Origin: Byssothecium circinans
Taxonomy: Eukaryota > Ascomycota > Dothideomycetes > Pleosporales > Massarinaceae
Assembly: GCA_010015675.1 (NCBI GenBank)
Contig: ML976997.1
Span: forward strand, 628,475-640,245
Direction of reading: 5' to 3'
Length of the DNA: 11,771 nucleotides
Part shown: positions 1,268 to 11,771 of the stretch, in pieces
Position numbering within the stretch: position 1 is the first letter of the stretch
How the letters are laid out: each line of letters opens with the position of its first letter
Notes under the pieces: model-generated
Database searches by the model: none
What the model was told of the DNA's origin: nothing
Seen by the model: the letters and a program-made list of their open reading frames with translations, nothing else
Translations under genes and position numbers: made by a program

Positions 1268-3298
1268 TTACTTCCGCATCTCAGCGGCTTCCTGGCCAAA
1301 CCTCGTCTTCGTCCGGAGAATATGGCCCCATTTATAGAAGCCAAAGAGGCAGGGCACGAAGACCAGCGCCAGGAAACCGGGGATGCTGGAGGCCCAGTGG
1401 ATGCCGAGTTTGGCGTACATGGAGCCTGTGAAGAGCCTGGGGGTGGGGTCAGTATGAGTCTCGATCTCGATGATAACTGGGAGGAATGATAAAGGGAGAA
1501 AGAAACTTACGGAAAAGCAGCGCCGGCCACCGACCTCAAAACCGTACTCGCCGCTAGCGCTGAAGCAGAGTACCCCATATACGCATCAACGATGTAATTC
1601 GTAAGCGACATATACAACAGCACCATGCCGAACCCAAACAGCGTCCCAGCAGACACACACACAAGCCAATGCACACTAGGATCATTCGTCCACGCGAACC
1701 AAAACAATCCGATCGGCAGCGCCGCCGCGCCCAGCATTGCCGGCGGGAGACGAGCCTCCGGCGGCGCGGCGCCGTGGTTTGCAGTGACGACGCGCGCGTA
1801 CCGCGCTTGGTCGACGAGCGCGACGTAGAAGAGCGAGATAATGATTCCGAGGACGAGGGCGAGGAAGGGCAGACTGGCGATTCCTTGGGGCCAGCCGCGG
1901 TGCTGTTGGAAGACGATTGGGTAGGCGGCGAAGAGGAGGAAGAGCGTTCCGTGGACGACGGAGAGGAAGAGCGAAAGGAGCGTTACTATGGGTTCGTAGA
2001 TGAGCATTATCCAGGGTCGGAGGGCGCCGATGCGGAGTTGTTGTGCTATGGGTTTTGGCGTTGCGCCCGCCACGACGTGTGGTTTCCCGGTCGTTTTTGT
2101 GAGGTGGGTGGCGCGGCGTTGGAGGAGTACGGGTGCGTAGGTCTCGGGGAATGTGAAGGTTAGAATCGTCCAGGTTGGGACCGACGCGGCGGTGATGAGC
2201 ACGGGGATGCTGCGCCAGCCGAAGCGCGCGTCGAGGAATCCGCAGATTATAGGGGCGATGTTTTGGCCCATTAGCCCGGCGAGGGTGAAGATGCTGAGCA
2301 CGAGGCCGCGTTCTTGCGCCGCGAAGATGTCGCCTATGACGGCTGGGGCGACGGCTTGGGTGAAGGAACCGGTGAGGCCGCCGAAGAAGCGGAGCGTTAT
2401 GATGGCGGTCATGGAGTTTGCGAAACCGGTGCTGCCGGAGAGGAGAACGAAGGCGCCGAAGGTGAAGATGTAGAGTTCGCGGCGGCCGTAGACTTCACTG
2501 AGGGGAGAGAGGAGGAGGGCGCCGACCGCGAAGCCGAGGACGAAGGTTGAGGTTGTCATTAGTGCGACTGTTTGGTTGACATTGAAGTCGAGTTTCATGG
2601 TGCGGGTTCCTTTTCACTCGTTAGCTCTCGTCTTCCTTCCCCGTCAAATATTCCTAGATGGTTTCTTCCGCTATAGGGTGAGTTGGGATGAGAGGGGATG
2701 CCGTACCTTGCGAGAACCCCGACGAAGCAATCGAAACCATAAACACAGCAAAAGCCAAAACCATAGCGTTCATCCACTTGGTCGTCTTCTTAAAATTCAG
2801 AGGATTCTCAGGATCGTCGTCTTCCCATTCCACGAGATAGGCCCCATCTTTCATCCCTTCCTTCTCTTCCACAAAATTCACATCCTCCTCAAAACCCCTG
2901 GAATTCCTGCTCACCCAACTAGGCCGTCTCTCGACATCGAACTCTCCACTCCACACTCTTTCCTTGCTGCTATCGGTGTAATCGTTCATGGTCATGGGGG
3001 CGAGCCATGTTTGCCGCCGGCCGGCCCAGTGCTGGTGCTCGTTTTGGGGCGGGGGCGGGGGCGGGAGAAGGGTATCAGAGACCATGACGGACATGCGTGA
3101 GGCGCGGGCTTCGGTGTCGAAGGCACCGGCCCATCGTTTGTTGACTTGCCGGAAGGACGCACCGCGCTGTGGCCATGGTGCTGAGAGGGCGACGTCGTTG
3201 CTTGTTGGGTCGGGGGAGGGCCAGATTGTTTGGCGGTTTAGACGGGGCTCGTGGCGGAGTGGGGGGCGGCCTGATTTTTGGAATTTTGCTGATGCCAT
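1268..3298 (-). CDS. MFS drug:H+ antiporter (DHA1-type), 619 aa, three exons
   Basis: Predicted 12-TM plasma-membrane proton antiporter of the DHA1 branch, the group exporting drugs, fungicides, polyamines or small metabolites; the substrate cannot be told from sequence. Exons on the minus strand are 3298-2707, 2609-1511 and 1436-1268. Intron 1 (97 nt) has a CTAAC branch and intron 2 (74 nt) has a GTAAGT donor, an ACTGAC branch and a CAG acceptor. Phases close to an exact 620-codon frame. Residues 1-174 are cytosolic and contain a proline run (79-84) and the family box DPENPLNF (162-169). TM1 follows at about 175-195. Motif A, SPLSEVYGRR, is at 232-241 and the FPETYAPVLL box after TM6 is at about 350-359. 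The C-terminus ends RFGQEAAEMRK, typical of the family. The start at 3298 has a strong context (AAAATGGC). The N-terminal tail is longer than usual, so a downstream Met (for example 69) is possible. No disabling change is seen. Confidence 0.93.
3046..3065 (+). repeat. G4-C-G5-C-G5-C-G3 tract, possible G-quadruplex, encoding a proline run
   Basis: Four G-runs (3046-3049, 3051-3055, 3057-3061, 3063-3065) separated by single C residues lie on the plus strand, which is the template strand of the MFS gene. They match the simple G-quadruplex pattern with one-base loops. On the coding strand they read as consecutive proline codons in the cytosolic N-terminal tail. Such a tract is prone to length change. 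Confidence 0.7.
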
Positions 3299-5986: not shown

Positions 5987-6900
5987 CTAAGAGGCATGCT
6001 TGTCTGGCCGCTCTGATGGCGCTGAGGCTTGATCTGGAATGGCTTCGCCGTCTTTTGAGAATACCGACTTTCGAGAAAGCTCGTCAATCTTGCACTTCCA
6101 CTTCAAAAGCGACTCCAAGTCCATGAACGCTTTTAAGGGTGTTTCAAACTGTTGAGTTCGGACTGTATACAGCGGCTTCGCTGTGGCTGCGCCGGCAATG
6201 TCACGGATCTCGAACCGAATGGAGATTTTCGTTCCGCCAAGGTGATGGAGTGGACGAAAAATGGCATCTTTTTTATATTGAGCCTCTGACGGGCCGTGGT
6301 TCTTCAACAGCTCATGCGTTAGGACTAGACTGTCAGCGTTGTCAGGATGCATACACAGCTTACTTACTCTTGACTTTCTGTAGTACATTGTGGAAAGAGC
6401 TTCCTAGCTCATCAAGCTGGTCTTCCTCCTCATCTGTTGTGTTAATTTCGACGGAACTATCTTCTCCGCAGATTTTTTTAATAGCTTCCGCTAAACATAA
6501 GTTTTCTGAGCGACGGTTATACTGTTTTTGCGACATGCCACCTGCGAGCCCTTGTAGTCCGCTCCTCACTGCCATTTCCTCGAGGCGCCTCTCCAGATCC
6601 CCGTATGCGTCGATTTCGGAGTCGCACCAGTTAGACTGCTGCAGTTCTCTGGTGGAACCGTCGGTGGTATTCATCGCCTTCAATACCGTCCTGTACATCT
6701 CCTCTGCTCCATCGCCGGGGTTGCTCTCCACGTCAACTTCGAATGAATGTTGACACGTAGGTACACACGTAGTGCAGAATAGATATGCGTACTTCTTCTC
6801 CGCATACTCTGCATTACATTAGCGCTCGCTGCCTAAGCCTGAATCTGTTCCTCTTCATATGTTACGTACTCAAAATCCTTTCTATGTTATATTCAGCCAT
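5987..6900 (-). CDS. Gene B: Cys/His-module protein of unknown function, 256 aa, three exons
   Basis: Family not recognised. Exons are 6900-6870, 6808-6368 and 6285-5987. Intron 1 (61 nt) has a GTACGT donor and a GCAG acceptor. Intron 2 (82 nt) has a GTAAGT donor, a CTAAC branch and a TCAG acceptor. Phases give an exact 257-codon frame. The start at 6900 has a strong context (ACAATGGCT) and lies 132 bp below a TATA box; an in-frame Met further up (7068) lies upstream of that TATA box and is excluded. Seen in the protein: a short N-terminal helix, EKKY at 14-17, then F21-C22-x2-C25-x3-C29-x-H31-S-F33, possibly a metal-binding knuckle. A DLERRLEE helix follows at 81-88, and an acidic stretch at about 126-145. 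A predicted strand/strand region spans about 176-204 and a helix about 208-228 (DLESLLKWKCKIDEL). The tail is polar. No signal peptide or membrane segment is seen. Shares two intron positions and several motifs with gene C. Confidence 0.72.
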
Positions 6901-7031: not shown

Positions 7032-7118
7032 CTTTATATAGATGCGTAGAGTCATCGCGGAATGGCAAGATTTTGAGTGACTCTTTAATGGGAATGGTTC
7101 TTGGCGTACGTGTGACTC
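7032..7118 (-). promoter_or_regulatory. Promoter of gene B: TATA box plus three TGACTC-type sites
   Basis: On the minus strand a TATATAAAG box lies at 7040-7032, 132 bp upstream of the ATG. TGACTC/GAGTCA sites are at 7049-7054, 7078-7083 and 7113-7118. The first starts 8 bp upstream of the TATA box. TGACTC is the core of Gcn4/CpcA/AP-1-type bZIP sites (established knowledge); binding here is inference. Confidence 0.65.
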
Positions 7119-7711
7119 CTCATTTTGCACTCATCAGTTTGAATCTCGAAGGCGCTTTGATGAGCTCGCAGTATCTGTGTGCGTTCCATTTGGGCGTGCT
7201 GGAGTGTATGGAGCCAGCCTCACAGCTAGGCCACGGGTAATAGAGTTACTGAGAAAGTAGCGAAGCGGAGAGAGGTATGCTCACGCCGATTGAAAAATGT
7301 TGCAGAAGTGTACTGGCTCACACCTTTGTGCGTCATATTCCTCGGCATGGTTTGATCTTGATTCGCCGAGCTAGCTTACCAGGACTGTAATACTGTCACG
7401 GCTTGCATCACGACCTAGAAAACGCATGCAATCGTTCGCAAGATAAAGATTTTAATTCTATATACAAAAGACAGCAAGAATTAAAGCTTAAAAGAAACCC
7501 CTCTGCCCCGCCCCCACTCCATATACAATTTAAAAAAGGAAAATAACACCACCAAGTCCATTCCACCACATCCCGTTCCTGAAGATTGGTCTTTGACGAC
7601 AAGGTGCTGAGTTCTGCCGGTCCGCTGGTATCAGCGCCGTCAGCGAGTTTATGGCGTTCCAACTAATGAATTGATTTGTGCAGTTGGAAGGCCTTTCCAC
7701 GTATCGAAGAC
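7119..7711. other. Intergenic region between genes B and C
   Basis: No gene recognised. It should hold the 3' untranslated region of gene C (right side, AT-rich around 7430-7560) and distal upstream sequence of gene B. The open frame 7408-7662 on the minus strand lacks an ATG-linked promoter and splice partner, and lies in the expected 3' region of gene C. Confidence 0.5.
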
Positions 7712-8853
7712 CTAGCCTCGGTCCTGCTGATTTTCAGTATCTGATACGTCCGCCTCTGTGTCGGTCTTTTGCTGAGGGCTTCCAGGAGGCTCCATTTCAT
7801 AGCTCTCGGAGACTTCCGAGTCAGCCTCCTCAGATGAAGACAAGTCATCATTTGCCTCTGAGGAATCGCTTCGTTTGACGATAGAGTGCCATTCCCTTTC
7901 CAAATCTTGTAAATCTTGTAAATCTTGCCGCAACTCTTGCAGTGACTTCCGCAAAGTCCTACAGATCCTGCTTTGCTTTATAAACGAAGGGTTTTTCGTC
8001 GATATAGGTATGGCTTCGATCCGTGTTGAAAATCCAGTGTTTTTATATTCCTTCTTTCCAAGATACTCGAAGAACGTGAATTGAAGCCTCCAGGAGCCAG
8101 CATATCTTAACCGAAGTAGCTTCCACGCTGCTTCTGTTCAAGTTAGCAGATGTACCCTCTTGGTGACGCAAAATCTTACCCTTTACAGATTTATACTCCT
8201 CCGAAGTTGAAATGCGTCTGTTGATGCGAATATACCTGTTATGCTTTTCTTCCCAATCTGACAACGGAACCAGCCACTCCAGCAGACCCCCTGGCGAGCA
8301 CAGAAGCTTTCTTTCGACATCGCCTTCTGGAAAGCCTCTCCCAGTGCAGATCTTTTGGTTGATTTCAAGCCTATATTTAAGGTCTTCAATGAGAAGCGCC
8401 CTGGCTTTTAGGTCGTCGTCGGCGCTGCGCGAGTAATCTAGAGGGATCTGCGGATCCTTGCCAAAGCCTGGTTTCTTACATGGTTTTATCTCGGGCTGAA
8501 ATTTTTTCTGGTTGTCTTGACCCTGCGTAACTATAATGTGAGTGAAGCTATGGCAGCCCTCGCAATTCACTGAGAACGGGCAGCCATAAGTCTTTTCCAG
8601 AAGGTCTATTGCATAATGTTAGCACCAAAACCGACTGCTGACTCGCTCGTTTTTCTCTATAACGCACCCATAAGTTCATATATCTGCCCACGAATCTTCC
8701 CGTAGTCATTCGAATCGTGTCCATAGGCTAAATCATCTTCTAGGATAAAGAAGCTCGTCAGGTTCAGCCACGCCAATATTATTGAAGTACATTACCATTT
8801 GTGGGTTCCCTAACCACCCGTGCTATGTTTCCTATTGATTTTAAAGCGTCCAT
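7712..8853 (-). CDS. Gene C: Cys/His-module coiled-coil protein of unknown function, 325 aa, four exons
   Basis: Family not recognised. Exons are 8853-8796, 8739-8668, 8605-8180 and 8133-7712. Introns of 56, 62 and 46 nt have donors GTAATG, GTGCGT and GTAAGA, branches CTGAC, CTAAC and CTAAC, and acceptors TAG, TAG and CAG. All three are phase 1 and close to an exact 326-codon frame. The start at 8853 is 103 bp below a TATA box. Seen in the protein: EKTY (47-50), then C52-x4-C57-x2-C60-H61-S-F63, possibly a metal-binding knuckle. Next come DLKYRLE (118-124), LLCSPGGLLEWL (144-155), predicted strands at about 198-230, and a helix/coiled coil at about 236-268 containing QDL repeats. The tail from about 273 is Ser/Asp/Glu-rich and probably disordered. 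No signal peptide or membrane segment. Cytosolic or nuclear location is likely but not shown. Apparent paralogue of gene B, about 0.8 kb away. Confidence 0.82.
7902..7928 (-). repeat. Three tandem 9-bp units coding for Asp-Leu-Gln in gene C
   Basis: AAATCTTGT occurs at 7902-7910 and 7911-7919, with a third copy (AAATCTTGC) at 7920-7928. On the coding strand it reads as repeated QDL tripeptides in the predicted coiled coil (residues about 255-263). The unit is a whole number of codons, so copy-number change keeps the frame. Confidence 0.85.
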
Positions 8854-8956
8854 GACGGGTAACCTTGAAGTAGGGTGTGGTACAGGTGGTGTGTATGCTT
8901 TAAGAAAGAATGGTAGAGGTATGGTAAGGTGTGTGGAGGACGTGAGATACGCCGCG

Positions 8957-9104
8957 CTTTTATATATGTAGTGATGACTCTTAATTGTGTGATTCACTCG
9001 ACCTTGGCATGCTTGGGGGGCTATGGATACGGGCGAACATGACTGGAATCCACATTATATATTTTGACTCATGCCCATGAATGGGTCATCCTATTCAAGA
9101 GTCA
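8957..9104 (-). promoter_or_regulatory. Promoter of gene C: TATA box plus three TGACTC-type sites
   Basis: On the minus strand TATATAAAAG lies at 8966-8957, 103 bp upstream of the ATG. TGACTC/GAGTCA sites are at 8975-8980, 9065-9071 (the full TGACTCA palindrome-like form) and 9099-9104. The first starts 8 bp upstream of the TATA box, as in gene B. Confidence 0.65.
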
Positions 9105-10015
9105 GATCTGTGAGCACCATCTTTGAACTCACCTTCACCGTCCCTATGACTGCTTCCAAAGATTTTTGGGTGAGTATCCTTTACAGTTTTCGTTGTAGGT
9201 TTTCCAGGGAAGAGCATAAAACAGAGATGATTATAATAGTAAAAAGGCGCAGAATGGCCCAGGGCCGAGGAAGGAGGTTTGGATTGATGGGCGTCTAAAC
9301 GTCTTCTAAAGCGCAATGTGAGCTTTTTACGCCCACCTCTCACACTGACGTGATCTCAGGTAGAGGGCCTAACTGGAATATCCAACAACCTTTCGAAAGG
9401 TACGCTTAACGCGTAGTACTCTTTCTAAGTAGTTAAACTTAAATCCCTTCCTACAACCGTGACTACCATACACTTTCTATTTCAAAACATACTTTTGCGT
9501 GAATTAGCTTGTTAACCTTTTCTGTCTCTTCTCCGTACGCATCTGCCTAAGCAAAGAAATTTGTGGCAAGAGCCTTCCTGTATTTCTTATAAAAGGCTGC
9601 ACGGAGGGTGCCTCAACTCCTGGGTTTAAAGTGCGCTAAACATTTCACCGTGCTCTAAGAATTAGGAATTTCTGGTCTCGGAGTTAAAATAAAGCACACT
9701 GACACCTTTTGGATGAGCTTTGTTGACTTTGTATCTCTTATTTAGGTGCACGATGGAACCCCTACAGATTGGTGTTACAAGCCATACTATTTTAAAATCC
9801 GCCGTTGAAGTGGTATGATCTGTTAGAACTGCAACTTACTATAGTATACTAGATAAAACAAATATATCTCTACATTGTCTATCTCTACATACTATTCACG
9901 CAATGGACGTGAGAAGAGTCAAGGCATGCATAGAAAATCCCTACTCCGACAACACTGGAAATACAAATTCAAGGAGTAATTGCAAACCAACCAAACCCGC
10001 TCTAATGCCCCAGCC
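9105..10015. other. Intergenic region between genes C and D
   Basis: No supportable gene. Short open frames at about 9071-9298 (+) and 9095-9343 (-) lack domains; both reach into the promoter of gene C, the plus-strand frame beginning inside one of its bZIP-like sites. A TATAAAAGG on the plus strand at 9588-9596 is followed by no sizeable open frame. Position 9840-9900 is AT-rich. The right side should include the 3' untranslated region of gene D. Confidence 0.5.
9865..9890. repeat. 11-bp direct repeat TATCTCTACAT, 4-bp spacing
   Basis: Two perfect copies at 9865-9875 and 9880-9890 lie in AT-rich sequence downstream of gene D. Probably slippage-type repetition; no function seen. Confidence 0.7.
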
Positions 10016-11252
10016 CTATCTGCTTGTCTTCTTCACTTCTCTCCGTCTAATTTTGACACGTGTTCCTTTATTATCTGTTCCTATGTATTCTTGTTTCCCT
10101 GCGTATGAATCAGTCTTGAGTCTTCTAAAACACTACAACACCATTCTAACACTCACCGTTGTTGTAGTTCTGTTCGAGTTTCTCCAATGTGTGAACAAGA
10201 CTTTCAAGAGCAGACCTTCGCATGTACCTTGGACCGCTTTGATTGAGTACTTTATAACTGCCATTGTCCAATTCTGCCCGGTTGTATAGGTAGGCTCTGT
10301 ACTCATACGGATTACACTTCGACGGTTCCACCTCGATAAAAGGCTTGTGCGGAGGTTTGTATAGATCCTGGCAAAGTCCTGTATATTCACATGCTAAGTG
10401 ACACTCCATGTCCGAGGAATCTTGAAACTTACGGTTTAGGGCTTCTACTTCTGACGGGTAATTGTTCTCGTTTATGCTTTTTCCATACTTCGTATGCTTG
10501 CGGGCTGGGGGCTGTGGAGCTGGCTCTGCAGCTTGCTCGAGCTTATGGTTATCATTTTTCGGATCTCTTGTTGGATTCTCTACACCGTGTCGACGAGCCT
10601 GTGTAGAGCCATGCTCAGCCAGGAAAAGGTCCCGTTCGGCCCGCAACTGCTTGTGTTCATCATCCATTTGCTTGAGTCGTTGTTTCTCAGTGTTGATGAT
10701 CTGTTCATGTGCTCGATTTTCCTCTTTTAAAAGATTATTTCGTAGGCGTTCACGGCCACCTTCCTCTTCGGCAGCTTTGATCCCTTCTTCGCCATCGAAT
10801 GGATCATCTAACTTGAGGTAAGTTTCTAAGTGTTCCAGCGGCGGATGAATGACAGGTAGTTTGCTCGCACCTTCTTCCTCCACGTGTTGTACCCACGCCT
10901 GTGTCTGACTTGGCGCGAAGCTTTCTATCGTGTCGAATGTAGTTGGCTCAAACCTTCCGCATCCCTCCGCTAACCTTACGTTGGGATTCTCAGGCCTTTC
11001 CACATGGTAATCATCGCTTGTACGATTGAAAGCGTGCCGGGGAAGAATGCTGTCTGTTCGAGATGAAGCGTCGGTCAGTGGTTGCTCTTCTGCGAATGGA
11101 ACACTCTCGGGGTCTGATCTTTTCTCTTCGCTTTTTATATCTTGTATCAAAGGCTCGTCTTCAACGTAATCGCTTTGGTGGCTCGTATCCCCGACTTCGT
11201 TTTCTTGGTCTCTTGCCGATGGCGAGTGTGCGTCTGATCCCCCTCCGGACAT
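10016..11252 (-). CDS. Gene D: acidic coiled-coil protein of unknown function, 374 aa (392 if intron 1 kept)
   Basis: Family not recognised. Exons are 11252-10433, 10378-10157 and 10098-10016. Intron 1 (54 nt) has a perfect GTAAGT donor and an ACAG acceptor but no clear CTRAY branch. It is a multiple of three without a stop, so retention adds 18 residues. Intron 2 (58 nt) has a GTGAGT donor, a CTGAT branch and a GCAG acceptor; without splicing the frame stops at 10146. Start context ACAATGTCC is 142 bp below a TATA box. Seen in the protein: a Ser/Glu/Asp-rich, probably disordered N-terminus (1-115), a charged coiled coil at about 155-213, and a Pro/Lys linker (about 244-262). A Tyr-rich predicted strand region and a helix with LESLVHTLEKLEQ follow in exon 2, then a basic tail (KIRRREVKK) that could be a nuclear signal. 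Possibly a distant relative of genes B and C, which is tentative. Confidence 0.75.
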
Positions 11253-11394
11253 TGTCGTAAGATACTATTAGAGACTGATGCGTGTATGATGCTTCTGCTC
11301 AACAGGAGGTTGAATATAGTGCCGAAAGATCTCGCTTTCCGAGATAAAGGGCGAAAAGTTGAGGAGAGGAGGAGAGGAAGAGGGTATGGATCGG

Positions 11395-11511
11395 GTTTTA
11401 TACTGCGTCTGACTCCAACGCATGAGCAATTGTTGGCTGCGAGTCATCCTTGTACGACGTAGATGACACAAAAGCGAGTAGTCATATGTTCAACTTCGCA
11501 TCGTGACTCAT
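11395..11511 (-). promoter_or_regulatory. Promoter of gene D: TATA box plus three TGACTC-type sites
   Basis: On the minus strand TATAAAAC lies at 11402-11395, 142 bp upstream of the ATG. TGACTC/GAGTCA sites are at 11410-11415, 11441-11446 and 11504-11510 (TGACTCA). The first starts 7 bp upstream of the TATA box, the same arrangement as genes B and C. Confidence 0.65.
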
Positions 11512-11589
11512 TTTATGATACCCCAATTATGCTGAAGATGTCGTTTCAGTCATGCCGAGTTGCGGTAATCAAACAGCCAGACTTGTCAA

Positions 11590-11730
11590 CAATCAAGCGG
11601 CTTGCAAGCGCTTGATTGATAGCTTGATAACTATCAATCCCATCAAGTCAAGCTCGCCTATACTAATTTTTTAGCAATCCAAGCTGAGGAGGGTCAGCTT
11701 GATTGTTTAGCTTGATGGGCTTGATTGAGG
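11590..11730. repeat. Cluster of inverted AATCAAGC/GCTTGATT repeats, probable transposon or MITE edge
   Basis: The octamer AATCAAGC or its complement occurs at 11591-11598, 11610-11617, 11697-11704 and 11719-11726. The core CTTGAT/ATCAAG occurs seven times in about 140 bp. Three nested inverted repeats can fold: CAATCAAGCG (11590-11599) with CGCTTGATTG (11609-11618), ATTGATAG (11615-11622) with CTATCAAT (11631-11638), and CAAGCTGA (11680-11687) with TCAGCTTG (11694-11701). Dense short subterminal repeats in both orientations are typical of DNA-transposon ends. The rest of the element would lie beyond the right edge. Confidence 0.6.
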
Positions 11731-11771
11731 TAGCGCGTGAGGCTGCTCATTTTGCAGCAGGAGCGATCTTA

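Follow-up and report, generated by a model that had tools for sequence, protein, structure and literature searches.

Three adjacent genes of the pleosporalean fungus Byssothecium circinans, here called B, C, and D, share a promoter plan in which a TATA box is preceded by a TGACTC hexamer (GAGTCA in the other orientation) and, farther upstream, by two more such hexamers, and the same plan recurs at other loci of the genome. The genes, all on the minus strand and arranged head to tail, lie in a stretch of 11,771 nucleotides (G000:C21:628475-640245 of a 48.4-Mb assembly in 109 contigs), which was analyzed as a whole and is referred to as the window. We consider it probable that B, C, and D belong to a dispersed regulon that has the TATA-TGACTC plan in common and is switched on together by a dimeric activator; control of the set by one factor is likely, and our best guess at the regulator, judging from its sites and by analogy, is a basic leucine zipper (bZIP) protein of the BIP1 kind. 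The promoter elements in the window are as follows, the TATA boxes being assigned from the sequence:

7033..7040, minus strand: TATA box of B, TATATAAA
7049..7054, minus strand: TGACTC of B nearest to TATA (gap, 8 bp)
7078..7083, plus strand: second TGACTC of B
7113..7118, plus strand: third TGACTC of B
8958..8966, minus strand: TATA box of C, TATATAAAA
8975..8980, plus strand: hexamer of C nearest to TATA (gap, 8 bp), reading GAGTCA on the gene strand
9065..9070, plus strand: second hexamer of C, a TGACTCA heptamer
9099..9104, minus strand: third hexamer of C
11396..11402, minus strand: TATA box of D, TATAAAA
11410..11415, plus strand: hexamer of D nearest to TATA (gap, 7 bp), reading GAGTCA on the gene strand
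11441..11446, minus strand: second hexamer of D
11504..11509, plus strand: third hexamer of D, a TGACTCA heptamer

The layout of the three promoters agrees with the description in an earlier note on this DNA, which had placed a hexamer 7 to 8 bp upstream of each TATA box and two more within about 130 bp: the gaps are 8, 8, and 7 bp at B, C, and D, respectively, and all nine sites, three per promoter, were located. The two sequences reported there as shared were likewise found, GATGACTC in one copy per promoter of B, C, and D and TGACTCAT at position 9065 in C and 11504 in D. The chance expectation of 0.16 sites given in the note is about right, as the contig background outside the window (64 hexamers in 147 kb, or 0.435 per kb) yields 0.21 for three 160-bp stretches upstream of TATA; the number observed in these stretches, which were picked post hoc, is nine (Poisson P of about 2e-12). 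Elsewhere in the window, the hexamer occurs not four times, as had been stated, but five times (3406, 4929, 7818, 8639, and 9916), with 4.9 expected from the background. The window as a whole holds 14 hexamers, a number reached by none of 200 dinucleotide shuffles (mean, 6.1; maximum, 13), and across 200 kb of the contig (including 41 kb of N), clusters of three hexamers within 150 bp are present only at the promoters of B, C, and D.

The genome was searched for the same arrangement with reversed patterns as controls, which are not a perfect null (149 matches versus 151 in the controls over spacings of 0 to 30 bp). The strict pattern TGACTC-N8-TATATAAA gave four matches (control, one), and at all four, i.e., at B and three other loci, three hexamers including the proximal one lie within about 165 bp. 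A hexamer 6 to 9 bp upstream of TATAWAA was found 35 times compared to 13 times in the control, with 17 matches for TGACTC-N6-9-TATAWAA (control, 9) and 18 for GAGTCA-N6-9-TATAWAA (control, 4). Over the spacings from 0 to 30 bp, TGACTC and GAGTCA yielded 72 and 77 matches versus 52 and 99 for the respective controls; 69 of these matches fall at 6 to 13 bp and 80 at the other 23 spacings. The counts peak at 8 bp (15 of 149 matches, a few being double counts of one site) and are raised from 7 to 13 bp, so that the spacing, previously described as fixed, is preferred rather than fixed.

Multiplicity recurs as well. In the sequences of 34 of the 35 matches (C29:1809 was left out), a second hexamer is present within about 200 bp at 24 and at least two more at 10, whereas another hexamer would be expected at about 3 of 34 or, from the contig's own clustering, at 5. 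Exclusion of B, C, and D leaves 21 of 31 promoters with another hexamer and 7 of 31 with two or more. For comparison, 19 of 123 background hexamers (15%) have a neighbor within 200 bp, and around 67 background TATAWAA sites, one or more hexamers within 213 bp were found in six cases, two in three cases, and three in none. The remaining 10 of the 34 matches, some of which are contained in lists L032 to L048, have no hexamer other than the proximal one and are probably mostly chance occurrences. Two of the 34 matches, L061 and L062 (GAGTCA-N6-TATAAAA, on the small contigs C77 and C81 of G000), are identical over 455 bases and probably represent a repeat and not regulon members; 22 of 32 is therefore the stricter multiplicity count. 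The shared regulation proposed in the earlier note is well supported by sequence and can be widened to about 22 to 24 candidate promoters genome-wide, a list that is partial because an exact TATAWAA and a spacing of 6 to 9 bp were required.

Seven pairs among the 35 matches are less than 4 kb apart, all of them on the same strand, compared to 0.1 expected; three pairs are on C13 (among three matches), two in the window, and one each on C3 and C37. When contig C21, which carries the window, is excluded, five pairs are left versus 0.08 expected. In the array on C13 (G000:C13:984870-990732), three of the 35 promoters and a more widely spaced fourth candidate (at 984870) follow one another in a row on one strand, and the open reading frames (ORFs) of two adjacent genes encode unrelated unknown proteins. 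Outside the 35 matches, three promoters on C4 (L063 to L065; G000:C4:1522350-1525540) are separated by 1.35 and 1.55 kb. Three TGACTC hexamers lie no more than 120 bp from TATA in each of them; their TATA-proximal element is (A/C)GACTCATCA, i.e., (A/C)GACTCAT, located at 8 bp in two promoters and at 11 bp in the third. L064 and L065 are similar by eye over about 150 bp, and the C4 array may therefore be a recent tandem duplication. As a class, the promoters are dispersed and partly arrayed, and they display a motif, a spacing preference, multiplicity, recurrence, and clustering.

The bases flanking the hexamer were counted for 54 sites in 22 promoters, with L061 and L062 left out. The seventh base, following TGACTC, is A at 19 sites, C at 15, T at 14, and G at 6, and the base preceding the hexamer is A at 18 of the 54 sites. 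TGACTCA heptamers make up 2 of the 9 window sites, 11 of 34 proximal sites, and 19 of the 54 sites. Close to TATA, the mirror hexamer GACTCA was found 11 times (control, 9), 5 times as part of TGACTCA, and TGAGTC 9 times (control, 5), 7 times as part of TGAGTCA; without full heptamers, 8 mirror-hexamer sites are left, which is not above chance (the unfiltered controls total 14). With the seventh base nearly free and the mirror hexamer not clearly enriched near TATA, the AP-1/Gcn4 heptamer was rejected as the required element. In the upstream regions, excluding the proximal site, GAGTCA is the top 6-mer (33 seen versus 2.9 expected), AGTCA, representing extra TGACT half-sites, reaches 64 versus 11.5 expected, and ATGAC/AGTCAT flanks occur, with ATGAC seen 42 times versus 13 expected. 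AGTCATA leads the upstream heptamers (13 versus 0.65 expected), followed by TGACTCA (11 versus 0.74), the top one among the TGACTCN listed, while TGACTCC was seen 9 times (0.69 expected) and TGACTCT 7 times (0.78 expected). GACTCA without the leading T is somewhat enriched upstream (about 10 versus about 2 expected, as derived from k-mer counts), and a palindromic component may be present in these regions.

Within 24 promoters, the proximal hexamer is GAGTCA in 13 and TGACTC in 11 cases, and the two orientations share the same spacings, with six GAGTCA and five TGACTC at 8 bp. Because of this use of either orientation at the same spacings, we read the pattern as that of a dimeric factor having a strong need for the TGAC half of its site and a weak need for the other half; bZIP proteins are able to bind one consensus half-site. 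In the mechanism proposed here, the activator would be a dimer, in all likelihood a bZIP protein of the Gcn4/Yap/BIP1 type, and it would occupy the TATA-adjacent site and cooperate with copies on the upstream TGACTC sites, and the bound activators would recruit TBP/TFIID, by which the whole set would be switched on together. The factor, activation as the direction of control, and co-expression of the set are what we infer from these promoters.

The nearest precedent found is BIP1 of the rice blast fungus Magnaporthe oryzae. This bZIP activator was found to bind TGACTC in four out of five tested promoters, the expression of 40 genes drops in the BIP1 mutant, alteration of TGACTC in one target promoter abolished its expression, and BIP1 orthologues are reported in Pezizomycotina, including Parastagonospora nodorum (PMC10833574). 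A bZIP protein is the leading guess because the proximal site is used in either orientation and the bZIP protein BIP1 binds TGACTC. The target promoters described for BIP1 resemble those reported here in containing TGACTC in one or several copies, and a small condition-specific gene set under a bZIP activator is counted as a further likeness. The two systems differ in that terms for TATA and spacing are absent from the main text on BIP1 (PMC10833574) and in their targets, which for BIP1 include effectors that are secreted, a cluster for secondary metabolism, and G protein-coupled receptors, whereas the proteins checked here showed no signal-peptide-like N terminus in a crude hydropathy test and mostly carry no known domain. 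A TGACTC site beside TATA in fungal orphan genes was not encountered in titles and abstract openings of the open-access papers retrieved, only part of the searches being aimed at both elements, which is weak evidence of absence.

Several observations weigh against a single regulon under a factor of this kind. No excess exists across all spacings from 0 to 30 bp (149 matches versus 151 in the control), and the signal is therefore local; the case leans on multiplicity and on the peak at 6 to 13 bp, a range set once the counts were known. The absence of ATG from the 100 nt following TATA separates members only weakly from other matches (16 of 24 versus 2 of 10; background TATAs, 32 of 68). The nearly free seventh base is unlike the classical Gcn4/AP-1 site. 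With respect to BIP1, the one tested promoter that was not bound carries four TGACTC motifs (PMC10833574), and the extended BIP1 site given there, CATGACTCG, was not seen here, G being the seventh base at 6 of 54 sites.

TGACTC is also the core site of the Myb proteins Bas1 and BasR, and the same regulon could be governed by a Myb factor of this type, its likeness to AP-1 being incidental, which we regard as unlikely. A specified hexamer core without the palindromic seventh base, the latter being nearly free, would suit a Myb protein, as would the lack of a mirror-hexamer excess near TATA (8 sites after heptamer removal, versus 14 for the controls without filtering); the motifs of Gcn4 and Bas1 are described as similar, and Aspergillus nidulans has two Bas1-like Myb genes (PMC6234034). 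However, indifference to orientation at a fixed distance from TATA is less expected of a Myb monomer, GACTCAT is present at 8 bp from TATA in two promoters of the C4 array, and no purine or histidine gene was found among the scanned proteins. The earlier note had seen a resemblance to Gcn4/CpcA/AP-1-type bZIP control and had named a response to amino-acid starvation or stress as an example. Its bZIP part still stands as the leading guess; the narrower assignment to Gcn4/CpcA/AP-1 control in amino-acid starvation is not supported, as the heptamer, present at only 2 of 9 window sites, is not required and the mirror hexamer lacks a clear enrichment near TATA. Gcn4 shares the TGACTC core and prefers an ATGAC flank, which is enriched here, TGACTCA ranks first among the listed upstream TGACTCN (11 versus 0.74 expected), and A leads at the seventh position (19 of 54), but TGACTCC (9 versus 0.69) and TGACTCT (7 versus 0.78) are enriched too. 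An amino-acid biosynthesis domain was found neither in B, C, and D nor in eight ORFs at seven other promoters; nothing observed here supports a starvation response under CpcA, and classical cross-pathway control of the set appears quite improbable.

It might also be argued that the promoters are alike only because the three genes arose by old tandem duplication and retained their promoter. The head-to-tail order, a borderline global alignment score for B and C (reached by 27 of 500 shuffles, at 26% identity in a gapped alignment), and the similarity by eye of two of the three C4 array promoters over about 150 bp are in line with such a history. It is nevertheless very improbable, as neither the local protein scores among B, C, and D nor the DNA scores of their three promoters exceed those of shuffled sequences, many other loci show the plan, and no relation was seen among the eight proteins compared.

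The comparison covered B, C, D, and five other proteins, one of which, from C1 (L033), has one hexamer within 213 bp of TATA. The lowest count among the 28 pairs was 5 of 200 shuffles, corresponding to chance level, and none of the eight proteins has a signal-peptide-like start, as estimated crudely from hydropathy only. When the eight ORFs at seven other promoters were scanned with Pfam, only SRR1 in the C6 ORF exceeded the cut-off, and one C37 ORF had a match below it; no amino-acid, purine, or histidine biosynthesis gene was detected among B, C, D, and these eight ORFs. At the C6 locus (L037; G000:C6:138527-141889), a regulon promoter precedes the SRR1-domain gene, and a second SRR1 gene lies just downstream. 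SRR1 was rejected as the gene family of the regulon, as only one of nine genome matches (eight over the cut-off, some being pieces of one gene) is downstream of a regulon promoter, with a second adjoining. As far as read, what the set has in common is its promoters, not its proteins.

The coding regions of the three genes in the window are as follows:

5987..6900, minus strand: gene B, 3 exons, 272 amino acids, NCBI model CC80DRAFT_506114, unknown protein
7712..8853, minus strand: gene C, 4 exons, 324 amino acids, hand model whose last two exons match NCBI model CC80DRAFT_550053
10146..11252, minus strand: gene D, 2 exons, 350 amino acids, unknown protein; the intron (10379-10432) was positioned from comparison with the NCBI model

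In each gene, the first ATG after TATA is the predicted start, at a distance of 140 nt for B, 113 nt for C, and 150 nt for D. In a search of 5.8 billion proteins with E values up to 1, matches of B and D were confined to the annotation of B. circinans itself, with 99% identity of B and 95% identity of D to its hypothetical proteins. For C, no match was obtained with a 229-residue hand model as the query, the last 45 residues of which are wrong; the 629-residue fusion described below is outside the candidate lengths. The genome search revealed no second copy of B, C, D, or the C3 gene; the initial hand-built models of these two window genes, B and C, on which this search and the Pfam scan relied, carried small junction errors. 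No Pfam match of B exceeded the cut-off, those of B and of the D-C fusion being subthreshold, and a PDB sequence search with B gave no match. Single-sequence AlphaFold models were poor (mean predicted local distance difference test of 36 for B and 44 for the D-C fusion); D is modeled with a long central helix, perhaps a coiled coil (helix residues 166 to 214 in the model of P0001). All three genes are apparently lineage-restricted. A shared origin of B, C, and D by sequence was considered, EKxY, HSF, and DLxxRLE being common to B and C by eye, and was rejected, as local scores equal those of shuffles and the global score of B and C is borderline.

NCBI model CC80DRAFT_550053 (629 amino acids; window positions 7712-11252) links D with the final two exons of C over an intron of about 1.5 kb. 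This fusion is doubted because the supposed intron holds the TATA box, hexamers, first ATG, and first exons of C, and the model is probably, though this is not proven, a mis-fused annotation of D and C. Elsewhere in the window, a major facilitator superfamily (MFS) transporter is encoded on the minus strand at positions 1507-3298 (Pfam MFS_1, 6.9e-35), the N-terminal part probably being contained in a second ORF (2654-3298). Positions 1-270 bear what we take to be a likeness to the C-terminal tail of a Fot1/pogo-type transposase, and positions 11560-11771 contain many CTTGAT/ATCAAG repeats resembling a transposon end.

Beyond a dispersed regulon, it is possible, and we suggest it tentatively, that these loci represent an undescribed TATA-anchored promoter class, in which one factor 6 to 9 bp upstream of TATA, bound in either orientation, acts together with upstream copies on a genome-wide regulon of mostly unrelated, intracellular, species- or lineage-restricted genes, some of them arranged in head-to-tail arrays. 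If this were true, new genes would join the regulon by gaining the promoter, and it would be the promoter that is conserved as a unit, with turnover among the proteins. Fungal orphan genes seldom come with functional clues, and the signature described here groups about two dozen loci, many of them before unknown genes. It provides a list for co-expression tests, a route to the regulator, and a case for how genes join an existing regulon.

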